Part shown: positions 12,392-28,596 of the stretch, in pieces
Position numbering within the stretch: the stretch's first letter is position 1
How the letters are laid out: the number at the start of each line of letters is the position of its first letter
Source: Desulfohalobiaceae bacterium
Lineage (GTDB): Bacteria > Desulfobacterota > Desulfovibrionia > Desulfovibrionales > Desulfothermaceae
Assembly: GCA_027013815.1 (NCBI GenBank)
Contig: JALWFY010000119.1
Coordinates: forward strand, 1 to 34,125
DNA length: 34,125 nucleotides
Reading direction: 5' to 3'
Translations under genes and position numbers: made by a program
The notes under the pieces: model-generated
The model's database searches: none
What the model saw: the letters and a program-made list of their open reading frames with translations, nothing else
What the model was told of the DNA's origin: nothing

Positions 12392-12406
12392 AACTAATCC
12401 CCCATA

Positions 12407-12492
12407 AATTTTGGATTATAAATTTTGAATTAAATTAGGAATAAAATTCTGTTGGGACAAAACTTAACCCAAAATTCAACATTCAAAATCAT
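12407..12492. repeat. ATTTTGGATT-type heptamer inverted repeat
   Basis: The left arm (about 12407-12438) has AAATTTTGGATTATAAATTT and TGAATT, built of roughly 7-nt units. The right arm (about 12475-12492) reads CCCAAAATTCAACATTC followed by AAAAT, the complement type. The same motif family recurs at 21485-21645, 24310-24400, 30755-30845, 32385-32420 and 33915-34105. The remaining part of this 574-nt gap, about 12500-12690, shows no gene or structure I can support. Confidence 0.6.
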
Positions 12493-12695
12493 ATTCCCTT
12501 TCACTTTGATTATTTCAATTTCCCTATGACTTTCCTGAAAGCTATGATGCTGCCCTGCCCCCAACTTAACTCACCATTAAATATAATATTTAAGATATAA
12601 AAACAACCCTCAATCTTTCATTTTGTGCCAAGAATAGTAATTAGCCATTCTACCAATTGTCCCCCTATCTTTTATATAAGAAATCAAATTTATTA

Positions 12696-12731: not shown

Positions 12732-12836
12732 ATGGAGAACAAACTCGGGTTACAATTCACCTATTTTAGTTATTTTATCAGCTTTTATTTTTGGTTTTTT
12801 AGGGGTGGAGTCTGTGGCCCGGGTGGTGAGATTTAA
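12732..12836 (+). CDS. Aromatic-rich leader peptide of the aro-phe-tyr-trp supraoperon
   Basis: This is a 34-codon open frame, ATG to TAA, too short for ordinary gene calling. Codons 9-23 read FTYFSYFISFYFWFF: 7 Phe, 3 Tyr and 1 Trp in 15 codons. After it comes RGGVCGPGGEI and the stop at 12834. It sits directly upstream of mutually exclusive antiterminator and terminator stems and 130 nt before the first biosynthetic gene. In Phe/Tyr/Trp attenuators such as pheA, pheST and trp leaders of enterobacteria, ribosome stalling at such codons prevents termination. No Shine-Dalgarno is seen. The peptide is likely to have no function apart from its own translation. Confidence 0.88.
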   Translation: MENKLGLQFTYFSYFISFYFWFFRGGVCGPGGEI

Positions 12837-12898
12837 TCTAAAATAAAAAAATAGAACCCATAAGGCCGCAGGCTCCAGAGAGCAGGCGGCCTTTTTTT
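12806..12898 (+). promoter_or_regulatory. Transcription attenuator: antiterminator and terminator of the supraoperon
   Basis: Antiterminator: TGGAGTCTGTGGCC (12806-12819, inside leader codons 25-30) can pair over 14 bp, two of them G-U, with GGCCGCAGGCTCCA (12864-12877). Terminator: AAGGCCGC (12862-12869) pairs with GCGGCCTT (12886-12893), followed by seven T (12892-12898). The two structures share 12864-12877 and exclude each other. A ribosome stalled in the aromatic codons (ending 12800) leaves the antiterminator strand free. One that reaches the stop at 12834 covers it, so the terminator forms. A weaker upstream partner, ACAAACTC (12739-12746), pairs 7 of 8 positions with GAGTCTGT (12808-12815) and could be the protector stem. 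Confidence 0.88.
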
Positions 12899-12965: not shown

Positions 12966-13766
12966 ATGCATCTGGGCAAATCAATCAGGCTAGAGAGGAT
13001 CTTCAACAGAAATACAGGAAGGACAATTATTGTTCCATTGGACCATGGAGTAACCGTTGGACCTATATATGGACTTGTTGATTTAAAGAACACAGTAAAT
13101 CAGGTGGCTGAAGGTGGTGCCAATGCAGTTGTTATGCACAAGGGTCTAGTTAGGTGTGGACACAGGGAACAGGGCAGGGATATTGGACTTATTATACACC
13201 TATCGGGGAGTACGCAGCTATCCCCATACCCAAATGCAAAGACTTTAGTTGGGAGAGTTGAGGATGCAATAAAACTTGGAGCAGATGGAGTTTCTGTACA
13301 TGTAAACCTTGGGGATGAAACAGAAAGGAATATGCTTGCTGATCTCGGCAGGATAACTAGTGAGGCTGCAGAATGGGGCATGCCTGTACTTGCAATGGTC
13401 TATGCCAGGGGTCCAAAGATCAAAGACAGTTTTGATCCAGATATTATTGGCCATTGCGCAAGGGTTGGAGAAGAACTTGGCGCAGACGTGGTAAAGGTAA
13501 GTTATACTGGGGACGTGGAATCCTTTAGGAAGGTAGTTGATGCATGTTGTATCCCAGTTGTTATTGCAGGTGGACCCAAAATGGACAATAGACGTGATTT
13601 ACTTAACATGGTGTATGAATCTATTCAAGCAGGGGGCGCAGGCCTTTCTGTTGGGAGAAACATATTCCAAGACAATGACCCAGCTACATTGGTCAAGGCC
13701 CTACATGGTATAGTACATGAGGACCTCACCGTGGATGAGGCTATGGAAATATTAAATGGCAAATAA
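12966..13766 (+). CDS. 2-amino-3,7-dideoxy-D-threo-hept-6-ulosonate (ADH) synthase, class I aldolase family
   Basis: This 266-residue class I aldolase-type protein probably carries out the first step of the archaeal-type shikimate entry (AroA', MJ0400 type), condensing an aspartate-semialdehyde and a ketose-phosphate-derived fragment. Visible motifs are IVPLDHGVT (Asp26), MVYARGP (Tyr146) and the Schiff-base lysine region [10 protein letters not shown] (Lys177). The phosphate-binding end reads VIAGGPK and [13 protein letters not shown]. Pairing with dehydroquinate synthase II immediately downstream argues for ADH synthase rather than fructose-bisphosphate aldolase. AAGGAGGT precedes the ATG. 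It is the first structural gene after the attenuator. Confidence 0.9.
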
Positions 13767-13782
13767 TGGAGTTAAATTAGTT

Positions 13783-14760
13783 ATGAAAGATATAGTTGTT
13801 AAGGCCATTCCATATGATAAAAAATTGGTTACCCTAGCACTTGAATCTGGGGCAGATGCAATATTAACAGAACAGGACAAGATTAAAGAGGTCACCTCCC
13901 TTGGGCGTATTTCTACTTTAACTCCAAAAGACATTCACACCATTTCCCTAAAAGAAAAAAAAGATGAACAAGAGGCTGCCCAATATTTGAAACAAGGAGA
14001 AATGGTTGTTATAGAAAAGGGGTGGGAAATAATTCCAATAGAAAATCTCCTGGCAACCCCAGGTAGTGGTAAATTAGGAGTAGAGGTAGAAGACTTGCAT
14101 CAGGCAAAGGTAGCATCGGGTATTTTAGAGAGGGGGGTGGACTTTCTCGTAATCTTGCCCCAGGCTGCACCTTTGATCAAACAAATAGTAAAAGAGATAA
14201 AGATCACAGGGGAAAAAATAGGGCTTATCCCAGCCACAATAACAGATATCAAACCCGTTGGGTTGGGACACAGGGTATGTGTTGATACATGTTCTATTTT
14301 GAGTACAGGGCAGGGAATGCTTGTTGGAAATTCCAGTGGATTTACATTTTTGGTCCATGCAGAAACAGAAGAGAATCCATATGTGGCTTCCAGGCCCTTT
14401 AGGATCAATGCTGGAGCAGTTCATTCTTATGTAATAAGGCCTAAAGACAAGACATCATATCTTGAGGAATTAAAGGCAGGAGATGAGGTCCTTATAGTAG
14501 ACAAGGAGGGGAACACCATGCTCTGCTCTGTTGGTAGGGTAAAAATAGAGATTAGACCACTTCTTATTATTTCTGCTGAATGTGAAGGTAAAAAAGGAGA
14601 TGTTATTCTTCAAAATGCTGAGACCATAAGGCTTGTTGCTAAGGACGGGAAACCCATCTCTGTTGTGTCATTAAAACAAGGAGACCAAGTACTAGTTAGG
14701 TTAGACGAGGCAGGGAGACATTTTGGAATGCGAATAAAAGAAGACATAAAAGAAAAATAA
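13783..14760 (+). CDS. 3-dehydroquinate synthase II
   Basis: This archaeal-type enzyme (AroB', MJ1249 family) oxidatively deaminates and cyclises ADH to 3-dehydroquinate with NAD, replacing DAHP synthase plus AroB. Typical family segments are ALESGADAILTEQD, GHRVCVDTCSILSTGQGMLVG, NSSGFTFLVHAETEENPYV, RPFRINAGAVHSY and PDKTSYL-like repeats near the end. I chose the ATG at 13783 (MKDIVVKAIPYDKKLV), which matches the usual start of the family and has GGAG 11 nt upstream. An in-frame ATG at 13756 would add nine residues and overlap the upstream gene by 11 nt. From this start it has 325 residues. Confidence 0.9.
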   Translation: MKDIVVKAIPYDKKLVTLALESGADAILTEQDKIKEVTSLGRISTLTPKDIHTISLKEKKDEQEAAQYLKQGEMVVIEKGWEIIPIENLLATPGSGKLGVEVEDLHQAKVASGILERGVDFLVILPQAAPLIKQIVKEIKITGEKIGLIPATITDIKPVGLGHRVCVDTCSILSTGQGMLVGNSSGFTFLVHAETEENPYVASRPFRINAGAVHSYVIRPKDKTSYLEELKAGDEVLIVDKEGNTMLCSVGRVKIEIRPLLIISAECEGKKGDVILQNAETIRLVAKDGKPISVVSLKQGDQVLVRLDEAGRHFGMRIKEDIKEK

Positions 14761-14781
14761 ATTCTAAGGAGTCTTAAATAA

Positions 14782-15876
14782 ATGGATCATAATTCAAAGA
14801 GGCTTGAGCAAATACGGAAAGAAATAAATAAAATAGACAAAGACATACTCATGTTGCTAAACAAAAGGGCGTCCCTTAGCCTGGAAGTGGGAAAGATCAA
14901 GGAACAAAGTGAAGATAGTATATTTAAGCCATTTAGGGAAAAGGATATATTAAAAGAACTAGAAAAAAATAATCCTGGACCCCTTCCTAAGGAACATTTG
15001 TATTCAATTTACAGAGAAATACTCTCCTCTTCTAGGAGCTTACAAAGACCACAAAAGGTGGTATACCTTGGACCAGAGGGTACTTTTTCATACTTTGCTG
15101 CCCTACATTATTTTGGCCACAGTGTACACTACTCGCCTAAATTTATACTAGAAGACGTGTTTAAGGCAGTTAGAAAAAAAGAGGCCGCCCTTGGTGTCAT
15201 ACCTTTGGAGAATTCCCTCCAGGGCACAGTGGGACAGAGTCTGGATATGTTTCTAAAATATCAGATATATATCCAGGCTGAAATATTTTGCAAGATAAGC
15301 CACAGTCTACTGTCTATGAGCAACAGTCTGAGCCAGATAGAAATTGTGTACTCCCATCCCCAGGCCCTTCAACAATGTTCTCTCTGGCTCAAAACACGTC
15401 TTCCCAGGGCAAAGGTAGTTCCTGTGGACAGTACTGCAGCTGGGGCCAAGATGGCATGTGAAGACCCAAAAACTGGCGCCATTGCCCATCCTGCCTTAGC
15501 AAACAATCTTGGGCTAAATGTATTGGAGAGTGGAATTGAGGACCTGCCTGAAAATTGGACCAGATTTTTAATAATCGGACCAGATGAACCACCAGCAGGG
15601 AACAGGGACAAGACATCTTTGTTATTTACTCTACCAGACAAACCTGGTTCCCTTGCTAGGATATTAAATCTACTTGCAATGGAAAATGTGAACATGAAAA
15701 AATTGGAATCAAGACCCCTTAGGGGAGAAAAATGGCAATATGTATTTTTCTGCGATGTAGAGTGTGATCTAAGCAAGGACCAATATACGGCCTTGCTTGA
15801 GGACCTAAGACACTCTTGTCATACACTGAGGATACTTGGTAGTTATCCAAATGGACCTTATATTGATTTACCTTAA
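14782..15876 (+). CDS. pheA: Bifunctional chorismate mutase / prephenate dehydratase
   Basis: This 364-residue P-protein leads chorismate to phenylpyruvate for Phe synthesis. Residues 1-90 are an AroQ chorismate mutase (LEQIRKEINKIDKDILMLLNKRASLSLEVGKIK). Residues about 92-270 are prephenate dehydratase (YLGPEGTFSYFAA, PLENSLQGTVGQSLD, NWTRFLIIG). The C-terminal ACT domain has KPGSLARILNLLAMENVNM and the Phe-binding ESRPLRG motif, so feedback inhibition by Phe is likely. AAGGAG lies 10 nt before the ATG. An imperfect hairpin begins at the stop codon (see the spacer entry). Confidence 0.95.
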   Translation: MDHNSKRLEQIRKEINKIDKDILMLLNKRASLSLEVGKIKEQSEDSIFKPFREKDILKELEKNNPGPLPKEHLYSIYREILSSSRSLQRPQKVVYLGPEGTFSYFAALHYFGHSVHYSPKFILEDVFKAVRKKEAALGVIPLENSLQGTVGQSLDMFLKYQIYIQAEIFCKISHSLLSMSNSLSQIEIVYSHPQALQQCSLWLKTRLPRAKVVPVDSTAAGAKMACEDPKTGAIAHPALANNLGLNVLESGIEDLPENWTRFLIIGPDEPPAGNRDKTSLLFTLPDKPGSLARILNLLAMENVNMKKLESRPLRGEKWQYVFFCDVECDLSKDQYTALLEDLRHSCHTLRILGSYPNGPYIDLP

Positions 15877-16055
15877 GCGGTGCTTTGCTCCGCTTTTCTG
15901 TATTCACATATTATAAGGAATTTATTCCTTATTAAGGTTGGCCTAAATGACCAAGATAAAGTGGAACAGAGCTTCACTCTGGATAAAGGTGAAAATCATA
16001 GTTCACTGTTCACAGTTAACAGTTCTTTTATAATTAACAGTTAAAAATTGGGGAC
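15875..16055. repeat. Composite palindromic element plus heptamer repeats in pheA-aroA spacer
   Basis: Read in order: AAGCGGTGC-TTT-GCTCCGCTT (15875-15895, one mismatch) overlapping the pheA stop, then ATAAGGAAT-TT-ATTCCTTAT (15913-15932, perfect). Next come TTGG...CCAA within 15936-15954 and GTGGAACAGAGCTTCAC. The block 15913-15980 aligns with 21552-21618 and, inverted, with 30692-30754. After it lies a 7-nt phased tract, AGTTCAC-TGTTCAC-AGTTAAC-AGTTC (16000-16025). The first hairpin ends in CTTTT and might cause partial termination inside the operon, but no competing antiterminator is seen. Confidence 0.7.
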
Positions 16056-16060
16056 AATAG

Positions 16061-17425
16061 ATGCAAAAAACTATAAGTGCTCCACCAAGTAAATCAATCT
16101 CTCATAGGGCACTAATATGTGCAGCCTTGGCAAGGGGTGAGTCCATTGTCAAGAACCTACTAATTAGTGATGACACCTTATGCACAGCAAGGTGTCTAAA
16201 CAAACTAGGCACCACTTTTTTTAATACATCATCAGGAGATATAATAGCTTTAAGTAAAAACACAATACCCAGGGATCTAAGTTCAATTAAGGTCTCTGGC
16301 ATCCCTGATAAAAATTTTAGCGACAAAAAAAAGACCTTAGATATGGATGTTGGAGAATCAGGAACCACCTGTAGATTAATTACTCCAATAGTAGCAGCAT
16401 TTAATAATATCCAAGTTAGAATATATGGCAAGGGCAGGATGCATAAAAGACCTATAGGAGACTTGAAGATGGCCCTTGAAAGATTGGGAACTAGGTTTAT
16501 ATGGGATGCTGAACCAGGTTTTCCTCCTTATATTATTCAGGCAAGGGGTCTGAAGGGAGGACGAGTCCAAATAAGCATTGAAAAATCCTCTCAATATCTC
16601 TCAGGCCTCTTGCTTGCATCTCCCCTTGCCCAGGGTCCAATTGAAATTGAATTGATTGGTAAAAAGGCCGTGTCATGGCCATATGTGGGACTGACCCTGC
16701 AGACAATGGAGGCCTTTGGAGTAAATGTAGAGATCTACACCCTAGATCAGGGCAGTTGGGTTCAAAGGGAAATAAAGGAGATAAAATATGCTATACCCGG
16801 AGAGATAAAGTTCAAAATAAAACCATCTAAATATACACCATCAGACTTTTTTGTGGAAGGAGATTGGAGCAATGGTTCATACCTTATTTCTGCAGGCCTT
16901 TTATTAAAAAATGGATTGAGAATAACTGGGCTTAAAAAAGACTCCCTCCAAGGTGATAAACGGGTGATCCAGATATTAAGACAAATGGGGGGCAAGATAT
17001 ACTGGGAAAAAGAGGATATTGTGTCCACTTACTCAGAACTAAAAGGGATAGATATTGACATGGGGGATTGTCCTGACCTAGTGCCTACCATTGCTGTAAT
17101 GGCATCCATGGCATCAGGAACCACTAGGATAAGCGGTGTTGCCCATCTTCGGCTAAAAGAGAGCAATAGGCTAGAAGGGGTGGCTAGGGAAATATCAAAG
17201 ATAGGTGCCAGGGTTAATACCTTTGACCATGGACTAGTAATTGAACCACAGCCCATTCCAAAAGGCAAGACAATAGAGTTTTCCACCTATGGAGACCACA
17301 GGATGGCCATGGGACTATCTTTATATGAACTTACAGGTATAAATGTTGTGTTGGACAACAAAGGATGTGTGACTAAGTCTTTTCCTGATTTTTTTCAGGT
17401 ATGGCAGACGATTATAAATAGTTAA
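16061..17425 (+). CDS. aroA: 3-phosphoshikimate 1-carboxyvinyltransferase (EPSP synthase)
   Basis: This 454-residue enzyme joins shikimate-3-phosphate and PEP to give EPSP. Diagnostic motifs are SAPPSKSISHRALICAALA at the N-terminus, DMDVGESGTTCRLITPI (the PEP/glyphosate loop), GKGRMHKRPIGDL and the LKESNRLEGVA segment. Near the end are STYGDHRMAMGLSLY and CVTKSFPDFF. The LITP in place of the commoner LLTP/MRPL near the PEP site and the 454-residue length suggest a class II-like variant. GGGGA precedes the ATG. It is separated from pheA by the repeat-rich spacer but has the same orientation. Confidence 0.95.
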   Translation: MQKTISAPPSKSISHRALICAALARGESIVKNLLISDDTLCTARCLNKLGTTFFNTSSGDIIALSKNTIPRDLSSIKVSGIPDKNFSDKKKTLDMDVGESGTTCRLITPIVAAFNNIQVRIYGKGRMHKRPIGDLKMALERLGTRFIWDAEPGFPPYIIQARGLKGGRVQISIEKSSQYLSGLLLASPLAQGPIEIELIGKKAVSWPYVGLTLQTMEAFGVNVEIYTLDQGSWVQREIKEIKYAIPGEIKFKIKPSKYTPSDFFVEGDWSNGSYLISAGLLLKNGLRITGLKKDSLQGDKRVIQILRQMGGKIYWEKEDIVSTYSELKGIDIDMGDCPDLVPTIAVMASMASGTTRISGVAHLRLKESNRLEGVAREISKIGARVNTFDHGLVIEPQPIPKGKTIEFSTYGDHRMAMGLSLYELTGINVVLDNKGCVTKSFPDFFQVWQTIINS

Positions 17426-17500
17426 ATGGTTGAATAGTTGAATGGTGGAATGGGGAAGTAATAATGTTATCTAACTTAACCAGTTAACTAACAAGCTATA
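17426..17500 (+). repeat. Octamer-phased repeat tract in aroA-tyrA spacer
   Basis: The spacer has two 8-nt degenerate tandem tracts: AAATGGTT-GAATAGTT-GAATGGTG-GAATGGGG (17425-17456) and TTATCTAA-CTTAACCA-GTTAACTA-ACAAGCTA (about 17466-17497). The second holds the palindrome GTTAAC. No recognisable ribosome binding site for tyrA is left in this stretch. Confidence 0.6.
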
Positions 17501-17509
17501 GTTTTAAGT

Positions 17510-18289
17510 ATGAGAAATAAAATCAATAACATACTAATAATTGGCCACAAAGGGGCAATGGGAAACTATTTTTTTAATAAATTTAAATCTATTAAAAATA
17601 TAGAAGTGCGGGGTATAGATAGACCCTTAGATGGTTCTAAGATTAGAGCCAATTCAAGGGACATTAACATGGTGTTATTTTGTATACCAGTACAGGCCAT
17701 GGAAGAGGTAATCCCCCAAGTAGTTTGTCACTTAAGGCCAAATACCATTATAGTAGACATATGTTCTGTAAAGGTTATTCCCATGAAGACCATGTTAAGA
17801 CATTACCCTGGACCTGTGATTGGCACACACCCCTTGTTTGGTCCAAACCCTGACCCAGATTTTCCCCTAAAAATTGCCATGGTAAGGGGCAGAGGTGAGG
17901 TAGAATTTAATATGGTCAAGGAGTTTTTTAATAGCTTGGGATTTCTCACCTTTGATTGCAGTGCAAGAGAGCACGACCAGGCCATGGCATTTATTCAAGG
18001 GCTTAATTTTGTCACCACCCTATCTTATGTTGCTGCTGTTTCAGAAGACGAGACATTAGTAAAATTCATAACCCCGTCCTTTGAACGTAGGCTAAAGGCA
18101 GCAAAAAAAATGATCACACAGGATGCCTATTTATTTCAAACCCTATTTGAGACTAATCCATATTCCCACAATGCAGTGAAAAGATTTAGGTCCTTTTTGA
18201 ACCTTGCCTCTGCAGGTGAACTGGATCTCTTGATCCAAAAGGCTTGGTGGTGGTGGGAAAAGGGATTAAAATGGGAGGATGGGGCCTAA
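17510..18289 (+). CDS. tyrA: Prephenate dehydrogenase with Trp-run C-terminus
   Basis: This 259-residue NAD(P)-dependent enzyme decarboxylates prephenate to 4-hydroxyphenylpyruvate for Tyr. It has a Rossmann start (NILIIGHKGAMGNYF), the catalytic GTHPLFGPN segment, and REHDQAMAFIQGLNF with the expected His. There is no chorismate mutase or ACT domain. No Shine-Dalgarno precedes the ATG; the only other in-frame Met would cut the NAD site. The oddity is the tail KAWWWWEKGLKWEDGA: four consecutive TGG codons at 18245-18256 and another at 18272. The last five codons are the 5' strand of an antiterminator for the trp genes. The tail therefore looks like a built-in trp leader peptide. Confidence 0.92.
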   Translation: MRNKINNILIIGHKGAMGNYFFNKFKSIKNIEVRGIDRPLDGSKIRANSRDINMVLFCIPVQAMEEVIPQVVCHLRPNTIIVDICSVKVIPMKTMLRHYPGPVIGTHPLFGPNPDPDFPLKIAMVRGRGEVEFNMVKEFFNSLGFLTFDCSAREHDQAMAFIQGLNFVTTLSYVAAVSEDETLVKFITPSFERRLKAAKKMITQDAYLFQTLFETNPYSHNAVKRFRSFLNLASAGELDLLIQKAWWWWEKGLKWEDGA

Positions 18290-18349
18290 TTTTTGTTTTA
18301 GAAGGGTATTAAAAGGCCACATCCTCCCACAGGATGTGGCCCTTTTTTT
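18245..18349 (+). promoter_or_regulatory. Trp attenuator using the tyrA 3' end as leader
   Basis: Control codons are four TGG in a row (18245-18256) inside tyrA. The antiterminator pairs TGGGAGGATGGGGCC (18272-18286, the last five tyrA codons) with GGCCACATCCTCCCA (18315-18329) at 14 of 15 positions, with one G/A mismatch. The terminator pairs GGCCACATCCT (18315-18325) with AGGATGTGGCC (18331-18341), 11 bp perfect, loop CCCAC, then seven T. The tyrA stop is at 18287-18289. A ribosome waiting at the Trp run covers to about 18270 and leaves the antiterminator strand free. A ribosome at the stop masks it. Only 28 nt separate the T-run from trpE, too few for a promoter, so trp transcription must pass this site. 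Confidence 0.87.
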
Positions 18350-18377
18350 ATTAATAAAAGAAAAATAAGGAGAACTT

Positions 18378-19787
18378 GTGGAAATGAAAAAAGAAATAAC
18401 CCAACACATAACATTGTATAAATCAGATATATCTACCCCTATAGGGCTTTATTTAAAATTTATAGGAAAAAACAAGGGGATACTCTTAGAGAGTGCAGAG
18501 GTAGATGGAAGATTAGGCAGATATAGCTTACTCGCCTGGGACTTTAAATTCTGTCTAAAATGCAAACATGGTTCTATGCATGTAGAGATCATGCACCCTG
18601 AATTTGATTTTCTCAAAGAATTTGAAGGAAGAAAATATTTTCAAGCCTTAGACGAGATTATATCAATAATAAATCCAATACCTCAAGGTGAAGTACTTCC
18701 TCCAATAACTAGATCATTAATAGGATATATTGGTTATGAATGTGTATCAATGTTTGAGCCTATCTTACAAAAAAACATCCTATTAGAACAGGCAGAATCT
18801 ATATTTGTCCTCCCTGGAAAACAAATACTCTATGACCACTTACACTATAATTGTTTTTATATCTCTTTAGACAAAAACAAATTAAAAGAGCCAAAACAGA
18901 CTATAGATGTAGAAGGTGAAATAAAGATCGGGAAGATTGAAAACTCTTTTACTAAACAAGGGTTTGTCAAAGCAGTCGAACAAACCAAAGATTTGATATT
19001 TCAAGGAGAGGCCATCCAAGTAGTCCTATCCAATAGATTTTCTTCTAATTTTTCAGGGGATCCCTTTACTGTATACAGGAAGCTTAGACAGACAAACCCC
19101 TCTCCATATATGTTCTTTTTAAATTTAAATGATATCTGTCTTATTGGTTCTTCCCCAGAGCTAATGGTGAGGAGCAGTAATGGAGTGGCTGAGGTAAGAC
19201 CCATAGCTGGGACCAGGAGACGAGGGACAGATAAAAAAGAAGACAATGCACTGGCTGAGGAGTTGATAAATGACCCAAAGGAAAGGGCTGAACACGTGAT
19301 GTTAGTTGATCTAGGGAGAAATGACTTAGGAAGGATCGCCAAACCTGGATCAGTTGAAGTAGTAAAATTTATGCAGATTGAGAGATTTTCTCATGTGATG
19401 CACCTAACCTCTTATGTAAAATCCAAAATAAAAGACTCAGTAAATGCAATAGACATATTAAAGGCTACCTTTCCTGCAGGCACTGTATCTGGTGCCCCAA
19501 AAATCAGGGCAATGCAAATTATATCAGACATGGAAGCAAAAAAAAGAGGGCCATATGCAGGGGCTATTGGATGGATAGGCCTTGGAGATAACAAGATGGA
19601 TCTAGACACAGGTATAATTATCAGATCCATCTGGATCAAGGGTAATAAGATATTCTGGCAGGCAGGAGCGGGTATTGTGGCTGATTCCATACCAGAAAAA
19701 GAATGGCAAGAATGTTTAAACAAGGCAAAGGTCATACATAAGGTCCTAGCGGAACAGAGCCCTGTTAAAGGCTTACGCCGATTATAA
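18378..19787 (+). CDS. trpE: Anthranilate synthase component I
   Basis: This 469-residue protein is the large subunit of anthranilate synthase, the first committed step of Trp synthesis from chorismate. The Trp-binding feedback motif is present near the N-terminus (GILLESAEVDGRLGRYSLLAWD). The chorismate-binding core has RPIAGTRRRG, EDNALAEELINDPKERAEHVMLVDLGRND, FPAGTVSGAPKIRAM and AGAGIVADSIPEKEW-type C-terminus. The GTG at 18378 has AGGAG five nt upstream; an ATG two codons later is the alternative. It is the first gene after the tyrA-embedded attenuator and works with TrpG, encoded next. Confidence 0.95.
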   Translation: MEMKKEITQHITLYKSDISTPIGLYLKFIGKNKGILLESAEVDGRLGRYSLLAWDFKFCLKCKHGSMHVEIMHPEFDFLKEFEGRKYFQALDEIISIINPIPQGEVLPPITRSLIGYIGYECVSMFEPILQKNILLEQAESIFVLPGKQILYDHLHYNCFYISLDKNKLKEPKQTIDVEGEIKIGKIENSFTKQGFVKAVEQTKDLIFQGEAIQVVLSNRFSSNFSGDPFTVYRKLRQTNPSPYMFFLNLNDICLIGSSPELMVRSSNGVAEVRPIAGTRRRGTDKKEDNALAEELINDPKERAEHVMLVDLGRNDLGRIAKPGSVEVVKFMQIERFSHVMHLTSYVKSKIKDSVNAIDILKATFPAGTVSGAPKIRAMQIISDMEAKKRGPYAGAIGWIGLGDNKMDLDTGIIIRSIWIKGNKIFWQAGAGIVADSIPEKEWQECLNKAKVIHKVLAEQSPVKGLRRL

Positions 19788-19895
19788 GGCTAATAGCTAA
19801 GGACAAATGGCAAAAGGAAAGATTCTAAGCCCTTTGCCTTTAGTCCCTTATTTACTCAAAACCCAGAATCTAGGACCTAAAACCTATATCTGGAG
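19788..19895 (+). repeat. Heptamer-phased tract filling the trpE-trpG spacer
   Basis: Nearly the whole spacer can be read in 7-nt steps. First comes GGCTAAT-AGCTAAG, then GACAAAT-GGCAAAA-GGAAAGA. Then CCCTTTG-CCTTTAG-TCCCTTA, and finally AAAACCC-AGAATCT, AGGACCT-AAAACCT. The first and second parts are roughly complementary (GGAC...GGCAAAAGG against CCCTTTGCC...GTCC) and could fold into a long hairpin. The trpG ribosome binding site (GGAGG) lies just after. Confidence 0.65.
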
Positions 19896-19901
19896 GAAAC
19901 A

Positions 19902-20492
19902 ATGATCTTATTAATTGATAATTATGACTCCTTTACTTTCAATTTAGTACAGTTGTTTCAGAAACTTGGAGCATTTCCTATTGTCATGAGAAACGACAAT
20001 AGAAAAATTTTTGATTTCCTTGAAAAAAAAGAGCTAGAGGCAGTGGTAATATCCCCTGGACCAGGCAGTCCTAAAACCAGTGGTCTTTGTGTAGAATTCT
20101 TACAAAAACTCTCCCCCACTATCCCAGTCTTAGGTGTATGTTTAGGACATCAAATACTTGGGCATGTTGCTGGATATGAGATAATTAGGGCAAAAAATAT
20201 AATGCACGGAAAGACCTCTTATATAACTTATAAACCACACATAATCTTCTCTGACATTGAAAATCCATTTAAAGCAACTAGATACCATTCCCTTGTGATT
20301 GGGGAACCTGAAAAGAAAACCTCTCTTTCAATAGAAATCATAGCAAGGAGTAAAGATGGGGAAATCATGGGAATTTCTTATAAGGATAGGCCATGGATAG
20401 GGATACAGTTCCATCCAGAATCTATACTAAGCACAAGTGGGCCTAAGATTATTGAGAATTTTATTAAAAAAGTCGTAGGAGGGACAAAATGA
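19902..20492 (+). CDS. trpG: Anthranilate synthase component II (glutamine amidotransferase)
   Basis: This 196-residue class I glutamine amidotransferase supplies ammonia to TrpE. Motifs are IDNYDSFTFNLVQ, ISPGPGSP, the nucleophile loop LGVCLGHQILG and the terminal GIQFHPESILS with the catalytic His-Glu. There is no TrpD fusion. The ATG follows TGGAGGAAAC. Its stop overlaps the trpD start as ATGA, so the two are translationally coupled. A pabA role in folate synthesis is possible as a second use but cannot be judged. Confidence 0.95.
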   Translation: MILLIDNYDSFTFNLVQLFQKLGAFPIVMRNDNRKIFDFLEKKELEAVVISPGPGSPKTSGLCVEFLQKLSPTIPVLGVCLGHQILGHVAGYEIIRAKNIMHGKTSYITYKPHIIFSDIENPFKATRYHSLVIGEPEKKTSLSIEIIARSKDGEIMGISYKDRPWIGIQFHPESILSTSGPKIIENFIKKVVGGTK

Positions 20493-21490
20493 AACTAAGA
20501 AATGCATTATTGTCATTAGCAGAAAAAAAAGAGTTATCAGAAGATATGGCTTGTTTTTGTTTTAATAGGTTATTTAAAGGAGAATTATCCCCTTCTCAGG
20601 CTGGGGCATTTTTAATGGGACTAAGGGTAAAGGGAGAAACCCCAGGGGAAGTATTTTCTGCGGTCAAGATTGCAATGGAGTACGCAAAAAAGATAGATAC
20701 AAACGGATTAGGGGAAAAGACCATAGACACCTGTGGCACTGGTGGTGATGGGAAGATGAGCTTTAATTGTTCTACTGCAGTTGCCCTGTACTTAGCTGAT
20801 ATGGGATACAAGGTTGTAAAACACGGAAACAGAGCCATATCTAGCAAATGTGGAAGTGCTGACATTATAAGGGCACTAAATATCCCTATATATGAGGAGG
20901 AGGATGAAATTAAGAAATATTTAGAAAAAAACAATTTTGTATTTTTATTTGCACCCTATTTCCATCCTGCATTTGCAAATATTGCCCCAATAAGGGGAGA
21001 GCTTGGGGTACCTACTATTTTTAATTTAATAGGCCCACTACTCAACCCCGCAGAGCCATCCCATCAACTAGTAGGAGTTGGGGATGAAAGATATATGGAA
21101 TTAATTGCTCAGGTATTAAAGAAAAAAGGGATAAATCGAGCTGCCGTGGTACATGGAGATGGATTTGATGAAATTACACCCACTGGAGAGACAAAAGTCA
21201 TCTTAGTACACCAGGATCAGATAAGTAATTTTACCATTAAACCAGAAGATTTTGGAATAAAAAGGTGTACCTCAGATGAGCTGACATGCAAAGACAGGGA
21301 CAGGGCTATAGAGCTAATGGCAATGGTCTTAAAGGGCAAGGGACCTGATGCAATTAGGAATATGGTTGCCCTAAATCTAGGTATGTGTATCTTTTTATTG
21401 GAAGACTCCATGTCACTAAAAGATGCAATTTTAATGGCTAAAGACAAGGTGGAGAGAGGCATAACAAAGATAAAAGATTTTGGATTTTAA
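20489..21490 (+). CDS. trpD: Anthranilate phosphoribosyltransferase
   Basis: This 333-residue enzyme attaches phosphoribose from PRPP to anthranilate. It has the PRPP-binding DTCGTGGDGKMSFNCSTA, the KHGNRAISSKCGSADI loop and the substrate-site segment FLFAPYFHPAFANIAPIRGELGVPTIFNLIGPLLNP. All are typical of TrpD rather than of thymidine phosphorylase. The start overlaps the trpG stop by 4 nt. A 173-nt repeat-bearing spacer separates it from trpC. Confidence 0.95.
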   Translation: MKLRNALLSLAEKKELSEDMACFCFNRLFKGELSPSQAGAFLMGLRVKGETPGEVFSAVKIAMEYAKKIDTNGLGEKTIDTCGTGGDGKMSFNCSTAVALYLADMGYKVVKHGNRAISSKCGSADIIRALNIPIYEEEDEIKKYLEKNNFVFLFAPYFHPAFANIAPIRGELGVPTIFNLIGPLLNPAEPSHQLVGVGDERYMELIAQVLKKKGINRAAVVHGDGFDEITPTGETKVILVHQDQISNFTIKPEDFGIKRCTSDELTCKDRDRAIELMAMVLKGKGPDAIRNMVALNLGMCIFLLEDSMSLKDAILMAKDKVERGITKIKDFGF

Positions 21491-21650
21491 ATCTTGGATT
21501 TTGGATTATAAGATGAAGCAAAGCTTCACTTTAAAGGGCTTTACGCCTTTTATAAGGATTTTATTCCTTATTAAATTTGGATGCAAGGCCAAGATAGGGT
21601 GAAACAAAGTTCCACTTTAAATTCAAAATCCAAAATTTTTTCATAAATGA
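21491..21650. repeat. Composite palindromic element flanked by heptamer arms, trpD-trpC spacer
   Basis: Outer arms of the ATTTTGGATT family (left about 21493-21511; right about 21619-21640, AATTCAAAATCCAAAATTTT) enclose a chain of short palindromes. These are TGAAGC-AAA-GCTTCA; AAAGGGC...GCCTTTT; ATAAGGA-TTTTAT-TCCTTAT (21552-21571); TTGG...CCAA; and GTGAAACAAAGTTCCAC. The block 21552-21618 matches 15913-15980 and the inverted 30692-30754. Its upstream part (TGAAGC...GCCTTTT) matches the inverted 30850-30885. It lies inside the trp operon. Confidence 0.72.
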
Positions 21651-21663
21651 GAGGTAGATATAG

Positions 21664-22530
21664 ATGTTAGATAAATTTATCAAGGCAAAAGAAAAAGAGA
21701 TCTATGGATTAAAGAAGTTGGAAGAAAAAGGTAATTTCCCCAAACCCTATGAAAAAAATAGGATCAAGTTCTCCAGTGTATTAAAAAAACGAAGGGGAAT
21801 TATTGCAGAGTTTAAAAAGGGATCTCCTTCTATGGGGATAATTAACCCCCATGTGAAGGTAAGAGAGGTGGTTGAACAATACAGGAAAAACGGGGCAATT
21901 GGTGTATCTATTATTACTGAAGAAAAATTCTTTTTCTCTTCAGTGGAACTTTTATTTGAACTAAGTGGTATATCAGTGCCCATTTTGAGAAAAGACTTTA
22001 TCTTTGACCCAATACAGATAAAATATACAGCATCTACCCCGGCTTCTGCAATCTTACTGATTGTTAAAACATTCATTAATTTGTATAATGTTACAAAAAA
22101 GAGTTCAAATAAAATAAAATATCCTGCCAATATGTTATTAAGATTAATAGATTATACACATCTACTGGGTTTGGAACCTATAGTAGAGGTATTTGATGAA
22201 AAAGAACTGGAGATTGCAAGACAAAGTGGAGCAAGGCTGATCCTTGTAAACAATAGGGATTTAACTAACCTTGAAGTGGACTTAAATGTATCCAGGAGAA
22301 TGATAAAACATAAACAAAAGCAAGAGATATGGATAAGTGCAAGTGGCTTGAGTAAGCCAGATGAGATTGAAGAGATGATAGGGCTTGGTTTTGATGGTTG
22401 TTTAATAGGCACATCCCTTATGAAGCAAAAAGACCCTGGTGCTGCTCTGTATAGGTTAACCAGAAATCTCAGAAAATTAACCCATGTTGGAGTTATAGAC
22501 TATGCTCATAAAAGTATGCGGTCTAACTAG
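21664..22530 (+). CDS. trpC: Indole-3-glycerol phosphate synthase
   Basis: This 288-residue TIM-barrel enzyme closes the pyrrole ring of CdRP to give indoleglycerol phosphate. Visible motifs are IIAEFKKGSPSMGII (Glu49, Lys51), VPILRKDFIFDPIQI (Lys110), LEPIVEVFDEKELEIA, ILVNNRDLTNLEVD, ISASGLSKPDEIEEM and CLIGTSLM. Residues about 139-156 (NLYNVTKKSSNKIKYPAN) look like an insertion compared with the usual short loop after LLIV. The usual GADA before that strand is replaced by STPAS. AGAGGTAG precedes the ATG. The 3' end overlaps trpF by 29 nt. Confidence 0.93.
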   Translation: MLDKFIKAKEKEIYGLKKLEEKGNFPKPYEKNRIKFSSVLKKRRGIIAEFKKGSPSMGIINPHVKVREVVEQYRKNGAIGVSIITEEKFFFSSVELLFELSGISVPILRKDFIFDPIQIKYTASTPASAILLIVKTFINLYNVTKKSSNKIKYPANMLLRLIDYTHLLGLEPIVEVFDEKELEIARQSGARLILVNNRDLTNLEVDLNVSRRMIKHKQKQEIWISASGLSKPDEIEEMIGLGFDGCLIGTSLMKQKDPGAALYRLTRNLRKLTHVGVIDYAHKSMRSN

Positions 22531-23122
22531 ATATGAGGATGTTTGTTTTTGTGACAAGCTTGGAATCAATATGGTTGGATTTATTTTTTATCCCAAGAGT
22601 CCAAGATTTATCTACCCTGAAAAGGTCCAGGGATTTTCATGTGATTTTGCAAAAAAGGTTGGGGTCTTTGTAAAACATGATATATGTAAAATAAATAAGA
22701 TAATTGAACAGGCAGGGCTTGATCTTATTCAGTTGCACGGGCCTTACTCTATTAATGACTGTATCAAGATTGGCACATCAAGGGTGATAAAGGTAATTTG
22801 GCCTGATTCATTTAAAACTAAAAAGGACTTTCTAAATGAAGTGAGAGATTATTCCAGGGCTTGCAAATACCTTCTCTTTGACGCAGGCACAAAGGGGGGA
22901 GGACACGGCATTGGGATAAAAAATATTGAATATTTAAGAGATATCCCAAATGATATAAGTTGGTTAATTGCTGGGGGAGTATGTTTAAATAATATATCAT
23001 ATTTTTTAGGACATATCTCACCTCATGGTATTGACATGAATTCTGGAGTAGAGTCATCCCCTGGCATAAAAGACAAAAAGGCAATTTTAAAAATATTTAA
23101 AAAAATAAAGGAGACAAGATGA
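22502..23122 (+). CDS. trpF: Phosphoribosylanthranilate isomerase
   Basis: This 206-residue TIM-barrel enzyme performs the Amadori rearrangement of PRA to CdRP. It has [12 protein letters not shown] with the catalytic Cys, [39 protein letters not shown] (Asp) and [12 protein letters not shown]. The end is [18 protein letters not shown]. It is not fused to TrpC but starts inside it: the ATG at 22502 has GGAG eight nt upstream and lies 29 nt before the trpC stop. Its own stop overlaps trpB as ATGA. Confidence 0.95.
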
Positions 23123-24285
23123 AAAAATCGTATTTTGGAGAATTTGGAGGACAATTTGTACCAGAATTACTCATGCCCCCGCTTATTGAATTAGAAGAGG
23201 CATATGAACAAATAGTGGGATCTACGGAATTTAAAGAGGAATTTAACAATATACTAAAAGATTATGTGGGCAGACCAACCCCTTTGACCTTTTGCAAAAA
23301 TTTATCAAAGGAGCTTGGATTTAATCTTTGGTTAAAAAGGGAAGACCTGGCCCACACTGGGGCACACAAGATAAACAACACTATTGGCCAGGCCCTACTC
23401 ACTAAATACATGGGCAAAAAAAATCTAGTTGCAGAAACAGGGGCAGGTCAACATGGGGTTGCAACTGCTACTGCTGCTGCCCTACTGGGCCTAAAATGCA
23501 TAGTATTTATGGGGGCAAAGGACGTTAAAAGACAGGCACCAAATGTAAAAAGGATGGAGCTTTTAGGTGCAGAGGTGAGGCCAGTATATTCTTCTACTCA
23601 GACCTTAAAAGATGCTATAAATGAGGCCCTAAGATACTGGATATCTCATCAAAAAGACACCCATTATTGTCTAGGTTCAGTGGTGGGACCTCACCCATTT
23701 CCTTCCTTGGTAAGGGACTTTCAAGCAGTGATTGGCAAAGAGGTAAAACAAGAGTTTTTAAAAAAGAATAACAAACTTCCAGACCATATTATTGCATGTG
23801 TTGGTGGGGGTTCCAATGCAATGGGTATTTTTTATGAATTCATAAAACACAAAGAGGTTAAACTCACAGGGGTTGAAGCAGCAGGTACTGGTACACCCAA
23901 TTGTTACCACTCTGCCACTTTAAACAAAGGCAGTTTAGGGATACTCCACGGTACCAAGACGTACCTACTCCAGACCAATGAAGGCCAGATCCTACCTTCA
24001 CACTCAGTTGCCCCAGGTCTAGACTATCCAGGAGTTGGACCAGAACATGCCTATTTAAAGGACACAAAAAGGGCAGAGTACAAGAGTGTAAATGATGACC
24101 AGGCCCTTTATGCCTTCAGGCTGTTGAGTGAAAAAGAGGGGATTATACCAGCACTTGAGAGCTCCCATGCCCTAGCCTGGGCCCTATCTTTAAAAAACAA
24201 GGTCCCTTCAGACTATAATGTGGTGGTAAACCTTTCTGGAAGGGGAGATAAGGACTTAAATATAGTTTTTGGAAATATAGAATAA
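23119..24285 (+). CDS. trpB: Tryptophan synthase beta subunit
   Basis: This 388-residue PLP enzyme condenses indole with serine. It is the classical TrpB1 form: [12 protein letters not shown], the PLP lysine in [14 protein letters not shown] (Lys84), [13 protein letters not shown] with the catalytic Glu, and the phosphate loop [10 protein letters not shown]. Near the end is [10 protein letters not shown]. The start overlaps the trpF stop by 4 nt. The alpha-subunit gene follows after a 133-nt spacer. Confidence 0.96.
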
Positions 24286-24309
24286 CCAAATGGCTTTTTA
24301 TAATAATCT

Positions 24310-24400
24310 TAAATTATGGATTTTGGATTTTGAATTAAAAGTAAAACAGTTCAAATGAATATTAATCCAACATCCAAAATTTAAAATCCAAAATTTTTCA
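24310..24400. repeat. ATTTTGGATT heptamer inverted repeat in trpB-trpA spacer
   Basis: The left arm holds TGGATTTTGGATTTTGAATT in 7-nt phase (about 24316-24337). The right arm (about 24362-24397) is the complement type, AATCCAACATCCAAAATTTA followed by AAATCCAAAATTTTT. The trpA ribosome binding site follows directly. Confidence 0.7.
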
Positions 24401-24418
24401 TTATAAATGGAGGAGATC

Positions 24419-25186
24419 ATGTCAGTTAACTCACTTGAAGCACTGTTTATACAAAAAAGACAATTGGGCAAAAAATGCCTTATTCCCTTTTTACCTGGGG
24501 GATATCCAGATAAGAAAAAATTCTGGGAGCTTTTGTTCTCAATGGATAGATGTGGTGCAGATATAATAGAAATTGGAGTCCCATTTTCAGACCCTGTGGC
24601 AGATGGGCCAGTGGTAGAAAAGGCATCCAATATATGTTTGGAAAATAATATTAGCCTTTCATGGATCTTAGATGAATTAAAGAGCAATAGGGACAAACTA
24701 AATAGTGAAATAGTCTTAATGGGATATTGCAACCCTTTTTTTAAATATGGATGGGAAAAACTAGCCAAAGATGCAAAAAAAGCAGGTGTTAGTGGGATAA
24801 TAGTTGCTGATCTTCCATTGGAAGAGAGCATGGACATAAGAACATTATTAACAGAACACCATATATCTTTAATCTATTTAATAGGGTTAAATACGTCCCT
24901 GCATAGGATGGAAAAATATGCAAAAGTTGCACAGGGATTTGTATATTTTGTATCTGTACTTGGTACCACAGGGGCAAGAGATAACTTGCCTAAAGAACTA
25001 CAGGACAAGCTAATTGAAGCAAAAAAGATCTTTCCAAAGCCATTGGCAATTGGATTTGGAATAAAATCACCATCCCAGACAAAAGAGATTGAACAATGGG
25101 TAGATGGAATCGTGTTTGGGAGCTCCCTAATTGAACATATAGACAGATACAAGGAAGTAGAGACATTTTTTAATAATTGGAAGTAA
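24419..25186 (+). CDS. trpA: Tryptophan synthase alpha subunit
   Basis: This protein of 255 residues from the chosen start cleaves indoleglycerol phosphate to indole for TrpB. It has LIPFLPGGYPD, EIGVPFSDPVADGPVVEKAS with the catalytic Glu51 and Asp58, MGYCNPFFKYG, FVYFVSVLGTTGARDNLP and AIGFGIKSPSQ. The in-frame ATG at 24407 is unlikely, since the codons after it are the ribosome binding site GGAGGAG of the ATG at 24419. It is the last gene of the supraoperon. Confidence 0.95.
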   Translation: MSVNSLEALFIQKRQLGKKCLIPFLPGGYPDKKKFWELLFSMDRCGADIIEIGVPFSDPVADGPVVEKASNICLENNISLSWILDELKSNRDKLNSEIVLMGYCNPFFKYGWEKLAKDAKKAGVSGIIVADLPLEESMDIRTLLTEHHISLIYLIGLNTSLHRMEKYAKVAQGFVYFVSVLGTTGARDNLPKELQDKLIEAKKIFPKPLAIGFGIKSPSQTKEIEQWVDGIVFGSSLIEHIDRYKEVETFFNNWK

Positions 25187-28128: not shown

Positions 28129-28189
28129 GCACCCGCACTTTGCTTCACCCTTTTTATCCTACCCTGTCCATGGCAGAGTAAGAATAACT

Positions 28190-28417
28190 AGTTGTGGCAG
28201 GTCTTCTGACTCCAGGATCATCCTACTCACTGCACCTTCCCCCCCTGCCATTTTTTTAGCAAATAATATAGTAAAGTCTCACTATTGAAAAACATCCTAT
28301 TTTCTTACTAAAAAAATGGCGGGAAGTGGCATATTTCAGTTTTCGTCCCCTGTTACAGCGGCCGGGACCGTGCCAGACTTTCACTGGCTTCCCTTTTAAG
28401 CCTTGCTAGGCACCACG
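28190..28417 (-). promoter_or_regulatory. Cobalamin (B12) riboswitch aptamer
   Basis: The conserved core is clear on the minus strand. It starts GTGGTGCC, then AAAAGGGAAGCCAGTGAAAG, GTCCCGGCCGCTGTAA and ATGCCAC. It ends in the B12 box GAGTCAGAAGACCTGCCAC (near 28212-28194). GTGG at the 5' end pairs with CCAC after the box as P1. With the downstream terminator it should switch off cbiK when cobalamin is plentiful. An insert around 28250-28310 forms a long peripheral hairpin (GCCATTTTTTTAG against CTAAAAAAATGGC). The stretch 28418-28596, up to the TatD-like gene, shows no clear feature apart from that gene's ribosome binding site. Confidence 0.93.
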
Positions 28418-28596
28418 AAATTTTTTATACTTCCATCTATATTAAGTCGTCAAGAAAAAAATTCTAACAAATTTATCATTTTCAATCCTTATGGAATTAG
28501 TCGATTTTATAGAAAGGAAAAACAATATATTGCAAATTTTTATTTAAGACCTATAATTTCCAAAGACCTAAAAATAGATTTTAGGAGGAACAAAGA

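Follow-up and report, generated by a model that had tools for sequence, protein, structure and literature searches.

A probable tryptophan attenuator in the Desulfovibrionales that uses the C-terminal tail of TyrA as its leader peptide

The supraoperon and its middle junction

How might the trp genes be governed apart from the aro, phe, and tyr genes when all of them lie one behind another in a single supraoperon? The question is raised by a stretch of 34,125 nucleotides from a Desulfohalobiaceae bacterium (contig JALWFY010000119.1), referred to here as the window, in which the first gene of the supraoperon begins at 12966. The same gene order has been reported for Desulfovibrio vulgaris (PMC1173090). 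A first-pass annotation of the window had proposed that the Trp-rich end of tyrA serves as the leader peptide of an attenuator in front of trpE. The features that matter are these.

12732 to 12836, + strand: head leader peptide MENKLGLQFTYFSYFISFYFWFFRGGVCGPGGEI, followed by a stop codon (7 Phe, 3 Tyr, 1 Trp), ahead of aroA'
12862 to 12898, + strand: head terminator, from the window sequence and folding
12966 to 17425, + strand: aroA' (ADH synthase), aroB' (DHQS II), pheA (CM-PDT-ACT), and aroA, between the two proposed attenuators, profile-confirmed
17510 to 18289, + strand: tyrA, prephenate/arogenate dehydrogenase, 259 aa (PDH_N, 7.8e-14), the 3' end being the proposed leader ORF
18245 to 18256, + strand: four consecutive TGG (Trp) codons, read from the sequence, the proposed stall site
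18272 to 18287, + strand: region 2, the antiterminator 5' strand, spanning TyrA's final five codons together with the first stop base
18314 to 18329, + strand: region 3, the shared strand, which becomes either the partner of region 2 or the 5' arm of the terminator
18315 to 18349, + strand: Rho-independent terminator, 11 bp and perfect, with arms 18315-18325 and 18331-18341
18378 to 19787, + strand: trpE, GTG start, profile-confirmed
19902 to 25186, + strand: trpG, trpD, trpC, trpF, trpB, and trpA, the genes proposed to be gated, profile-confirmed

The gene called aroA is the one for EPSP synthase, and the TrpB call rests on a PLP enzyme family profile. Some further observations concern the same DNA. 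A terminator-like hairpin with seven T (16191-16222, + strand) lies within the aroA ORF, toward its 5' end. The AT-rich spacers at 12400-12500, 17426-17509, 19788-19901, and 21491-21663 share recurring phrases such as aaattcaaaatccaaaatttt, which may represent a dispersed short repeat. A cobalamin riboswitch (Rfam RF00174, 100.7 bits) is found at 28179-28432 on the - strand. Outside the window, genome G000 encodes a second chorismate-binding enzyme (contig C217, 16853-17923; locus L245) that is 38% identical to TrpE and lies directly 3' of a glutamine amidotransferase-like end; it is likely to be PabB or a second TrpE.

Anatomy of the junction

The C terminus of TyrA is KAWWWWEKGLKWEDGA, also read as ...IQKAWWWWEKGLKWEDGA before the stop codon, and the four TGG codons, the 11-bp terminator with its seven T, and the pairing between the two segments are all exactly as first annotated, to the base. 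The terminator loop is the 5-nt CCCAC (18326-18330), and the 3' arm is followed by one C and then by T7 at 18343-18349, about 30 nt ahead of the trpE start. Among terminator-like sites between 9 and 27 kb, this hairpin ranks first. The segment 18272-18286 is complementary to 18315-18329 at 14 of 15 positions, so that the same strand can enter either of two exclusive structures; folded separately, the terminator has an energy of -20.7 kcal/mol and the antiterminator -26.8 kcal/mol. The fold of 18240-18355 has a z score of -2.75. The minimum free energy fold of the window contains no independent 5' hairpin of the kind that regions 1 and 2 form as a pause hairpin, and Rfam gave no match at the gathering threshold; relaxing the cutoff to E=10 brought up no Trp leader family either.

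How would such a junction work? RNA polymerase would move from tyrA toward trpE with a ribosome trailing behind. When charged tRNA-Trp is plentiful, the ribosome should clear the TGG run, reach the tyrA stop codon, and cover region 2, whereupon the hairpin at 18315-18349 would end transcription ahead of trpE. When tRNA-Trp is uncharged, the ribosome should stall on 18245-18256 with its leading edge just short of region 2. Region 2, left free, would then pair with region 3, the terminator would fail to form, and trpEGDCFBA would be transcribed. One detail of the window speaks against this reading: a fifth Trp codon (18272-18274) lies within the pairing segment, and a stall there would block the antiterminator. 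Even so, sequence comparison makes it very likely that a ribosome-mediated transcription attenuator, with the C-terminal tail of TyrA as its leader peptide, spans the tyrA-trpE junction. The comparisons that follow are the grounds for that view.

Conservation and covariation across the order

TyrA is present in 309 of 348 genomes of the order. The 80 named loci come from Desulfomicrobium, Desulfonatronum, Desulfonauticus, Desulfonatronovibrio, Desulfohalobiaceae, Nitratidesulfovibrio, Halodesulfovibrio, Pseudodesulfovibrio, Humidesulfovibrio, Solidesulfovibrio, and Desulfovibrio. A terminator just 3' of tyrA with trpE downstream was found at 78 distinct loci covering all six families sampled, a recurrence that puts the architecture beyond chance, and at least three Trp codons precede it in 80 of 81 loci that have both trpE and the terminator. 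Relatives with the same gene order thus carry Trp tails, terminators, and alternative pairings together, as the first-pass annotation had anticipated. The homologous TyrAs examined outside the order (L210-L232) have no Trp tail and no trpE after them. A point against the proposal is that in Solidesulfovibrio and some other relatives tyrA and trpE are adjacent yet lack the device.

The pairing itself was assessed in several ways over the 78 loci. Against dinucleotide shuffles, the strongest pairing of the stretch past the Trp codons with the terminator 5' arm has a median z of -2.96, with p<0.05 in 88%. Mean pairing energy is -22.6 kcal/mol for native partners and -17.1 kcal/mol for partners swapped between loci, and control windows taken upstream in tyrA average only -11.5 and -14.1 kcal/mol; the native pairing is stronger than both controls in 77 of 78 loci. 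Grouping into 50 clusters gives -23.2 for native and -17.3 for swapped pairs (Wilcoxon p 1e-14), though related loci are not independent, so that the p values for pairing overstate the certainty while the direction is uniform. Choosing region 2 as the best duplex favors pairing, but swapped pairs were optimized alike, which spares the swap test this particular bias.

Covariation was judged by this swap test together with the behavior of triplets. At arm positions 5-9, regions 2, 3, and 4 change together (UAU, CGC, GCG, AUG/AUA), as in the combinations UAU/CGC/GCG and AUA/GCG. The antiterminator sequesters a median of 75% of the terminator-arm bases.

Spacing and ribosome geometry

What fixes the place of region 2? 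Counted from the last Trp codon, its start lies at a median of 15 nt (sd 2.2, 78 loci); in 88% of loci it falls 12 to 17 nt past the Trp codons, as against 15% of shuffled sequences. Measured from the tyrA stop codon its position is far looser (sd 8.1, range -26 to +7); in 17 loci it begins in or past the stop codon, and its codon phase varies. Because region 2 follows the Trp codons while the phase varies, what is constrained is the RNA close to the Trp codons and not the residues of TyrA.

The leading edge of the ribosome is assumed to lie 16 nt from the first base of the P site. By this computed geometry, a ribosome with the last Trp codon in its A site leaves region 2 wholly uncovered in 75 of 78 loci, whereas 24% of shuffles would begin inside the footprint of the stalled ribosome. 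In 77 of 78 loci, again by computed geometry, no less than 40% of region 2 lies under a ribosome that has reached the stop codon. These positions fit the suggestion that a stall frees the antiterminator strand and that arrival at the stop covers it, and Trp-dependent stalling with read-through into trpE is what we infer.

A likely protein role of the Trp run

Could the Trp run simply be something that the enzyme needs? The AlphaFold model of TyrA (mean pLDDT 93) predicts that W246-W249 are part of a C-terminal helix of residues 238-255. Across the 22 rows of a TyrA alignment, W247 and W248 never change and W249 hardly does, whereas the sequence beyond the run differs in length and composition; alignments with PDB relatives reach only to about residue 228. 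WWW is also kept in 38 of 51 TyrAs from split loci, where trpE lies apart and the attenuator is absent. This conservation is consistent with a protein role of Trp-Trp, in addition to the proposed regulatory one; the pair is found even in TyrAs that lack the attenuator, so that regulation is not the tail's sole function. The idea of a Trp run that serves regulation alone was accordingly rejected, and the original claim that the end of TyrA has become the leader stands, strengthened by the comparative tests, with that qualification.

For the same two reasons, persistence without the device and a predicted place in a helix, the Trp run alone is no proof of attenuation. In loci with trpE adjacent and no terminator, the run is mostly reduced: at least three Trp codons remain in 9 of 30, versus the 80 of 81 given above. 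A G-rich segment (at least three G) is present in 93% of attenuator loci versus 30 to 36% of terminator-less ones (Fisher p 2e-13, with loci treated as independent). On a TyrA tree built without the tail columns, the attenuator state has to change 9 times and the adjacency 4 times. Loss of the attenuator and loss of W3 go in the same direction in all informative independent pairs, which are too few to reach significance (median p 0.125).

Other explanations

Three other explanations deserve attention. The first keeps the codons and changes the peptide: a promoter and an in-frame internal start within 3' tyrA would produce a short nested leader, so that full-length TyrA would not be the sensor. 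In its favor, a GTG lying in frame 24 codons ahead of the Trp run has an AGGA-like motif upstream in 22 of 78 loci, and in one genome, described below, the leader is indeed a short TyrA fragment. The GTG and its motif are missing from most loci, the window included, however, and a search of the embedded loci for a nested start found no start codon column common to the set. Where the AGGA...GTG pattern does occur it is accounted for by codons for Gln-Asp-Ala-Val, and the region is not richer in promoter-like sites than shuffled sequence. We consider a nested leader improbable.

A still less probable explanation, to which we give very little credence, is that the hairpin is a plain terminator of the aro/phe/tyr operon, that trpE has its own promoter, and that the Trp tail is only structural in TyrA. 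The retention of WW(W) in TyrAs without a terminator, at a predicted helix position, fits this well. It leaves unexplained, however, the 15-nt Trp spacing, the three-way covariation, and the free leaders of like design. The distance from T-run to trpE is also at most 60 nt in 40 of 78 loci, about half, which leaves little room for a promoter; in many of the loci with a short gap, read-through from tyrA very probably supplies the trp mRNA. It was on the strength of the short gaps, the fixed spacing, and the free-leader replacements that this second explanation was rejected as the principal one.

Lastly, uncoupling as in Escherichia coli rph-pyrE, with the distance between ribosome and polymerase deciding termination and no codon-specific sensing, matches the layout of upstream gene end, terminator, and downstream biosynthetic gene (PMC2784333), but at least three Trp codons in 80 of 81 loci and an antiterminator that tracks those codons and not the stop make it scarcely credible.

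Free leaders, a decayed fragment, and losses

What becomes of the leader when trpE leaves tyrA? Two sets of 13 and 34 genomes, chosen mostly for a tyrA without trpE behind it, were examined by reading the region upstream of trpE where trpE was present. In these split genomes, most trpE genes are preceded by a free WW/WWW ORF, such as MNVFSNTISNSFKGWWWRIQLRGGDVRA or MHAFPTTFFADSFQGWWWRINMRGGDVRA, each ending in a stop codon, and then by a terminator; the median distance from Trp run to region 2 is 15 nt, as in the embedded form. A profile of the embedded elements without the TGG codons matched 14 of 41 trpE upstream regions (E<=1e-3) and none of 55 head attenuators.

The free trp leaders of Desulfovibrio sensu stricto (L235-L243, L251-L264) resemble the embedded form in their WWW-R-x-G-rich layout, spacing, and terminator, and are related to it in sequence. 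They differ in having their own ATG, about 25 to 35 codons, and a trp operon unlinked to tyrA. In the TyrAs of split Desulfovibrio, the G-rich segment has decayed, with at least three G in 30% versus 93%. The N termini of the L235-L243 leaders (MNVFSNTISNSF) are slightly like those of head leaders from L063-L113 (MQRIFSNHTSS), a likeness that could reflect a deletion joining the start of a head leader to a TyrA tail.

An intermediate state is seen in the Desulfovibrionales MAG AS09scLD_228 (G541). Its trp leader (locus L277, 2053-2256) is a decayed TyrA C terminus of about 68 codons, ending in ...AAAGGDLDLLSPKALWWWPRQHQPGEPAS and a stop codon. The genome also has an intact TyrA (L058), to which the fragment is 63% identical; that intact copy lies on another contig and has no terminator. 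A Phe/Tyr-rich leader with a terminator stands upstream of the fragment, so that 1820-2256 of L277 comprises both leaders. The layout is explained by an internal deletion that spared only the two leaders and trp. A misassembly, though possible, is unlikely given that the fragment carries substitutions of its own along its whole length. The enzyme has been lost while WWW, the tail, and the terminator were kept, and the part retained is thus the part that attenuation by the TyrA tail needs.

Which form came first? Each of the six families sampled has the embedded form, and the large clade of split Desulfovibrio sits nested among them, so that the embedded attenuator is most simply taken, from its distribution, to be ancestral within the order. 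A wider proposal, that the ancestral embedded leader repeatedly spawned free leaders, that it also acts as a branch-point switch, and that the codons of the helix are under regulatory selection, is tentative, its chances falling somewhat short of even. If it were true, Trp hunger would slow completion of TyrA, on the Tyr branch, and open trpE, on the Trp branch, both drawing on the same chorismate pool.

Probable two-tiered control

The tyrA-trpE junction would not be the only regulated point in the supraoperon. At its head, the leader peptide at 12732-12836 is followed by a region 2 at about 12805-12820, with an antiterminator duplex of -29 kcal/mol, and by a terminator; aromatic-rich leaders of like kind stand ahead of aroA' in most relatives scanned within the order. 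An attenuator predicted in the Merino database ahead of aroA'-aroB'-pheA-aroF-tyrA-[trp] in D. vulgaris (PMC1173090, Table 7) belongs to the same supraoperon in a relative and is placed ahead of the whole cluster; its position corresponds to the head attenuator (12732-12898), unlike the one between tyrA and trpE, and the two head elements are probably counterparts.

With an aromatic-rich leader attenuator at the head and a Trp attenuator in the middle, control would be two-tiered. The head attenuator, responding mainly to Phe and Tyr, would gate entry to the whole supraoperon, and the trp genes would have to pass two gates, one Phe/Tyr-rich at the head and one for Trp in the middle. This separate head leader lends further weight to the notion of a trp gate distinct from that of aro/phe/tyr. 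A mid-operon gate would thus have been added to a supraoperon already attenuated at its head, and Trp-specific control of trp is predicted in Nitratidesulfovibrio (the D. vulgaris group), a genetically tractable model.

Comparison with known systems

In the limited open-access literature consulted, no description of a TyrA-embedded trp leader was found, in line with the first-pass annotation, and a mention in older attenuator surveys is possible. Leader peptides are taught as short and dispensable; here, the sensing codons lie in a conserved enzyme, and one DNA stretch would have to satisfy the needs of the protein, the sensing of codon hunger, and two competing RNA folds. Embedded, decayed-fragment, free-leader, and lost states are all represented in the order, making the origin of a leader peptide directly testable.

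E. coli trpL is the classical case of ribosome-mediated transcription attenuation, with tandem Trp codons in a separate 14-aa leader peptide behind a promoter. Comparative evidence strongly supports the view that the tyrA-trpE junction works like a trp attenuator, sharing with trpL the tandem Trp codons, the exclusive antiterminator and Rho-independent terminator, trpE as first gene, and the stall/stop geometry. It is not a classical trpL attenuator, as its leader ORF is an enzyme: the C terminus of a conserved 259-aa protein encoded in mid-operon, with no separate leader start codon. A separate short leader ORF with its own start is absent from the embedded form and present in most split genomes. 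The window also folds without a separate 5' hairpin over the Trp codons, and the antiterminator is the more stable fold.

Two other systems place regulation within a larger protein or gene. Arrest sequences of the SecM and CGS1 type sit inside larger proteins and act by nascent-chain arrest; they resemble the TyrA tail in being regulatory stalling sequences within a larger protein and differ from it in that the tail would respond to codon hunger. Attenuation of pyrE is not known to require a conserved codon run. The nearest precedent is nevertheless E. coli rph-pyrE (PMC2784333, which cites a 1984 EMBO J paper for the attenuator), where translation at the close of one enzyme gene likewise determines whether a terminator ahead of the following gene acts, in response to pyrimidine supply. 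It differs in working through polymerase-ribosome coupling, where tyrA-trpE would rely on a regulatory run of Trp codons.
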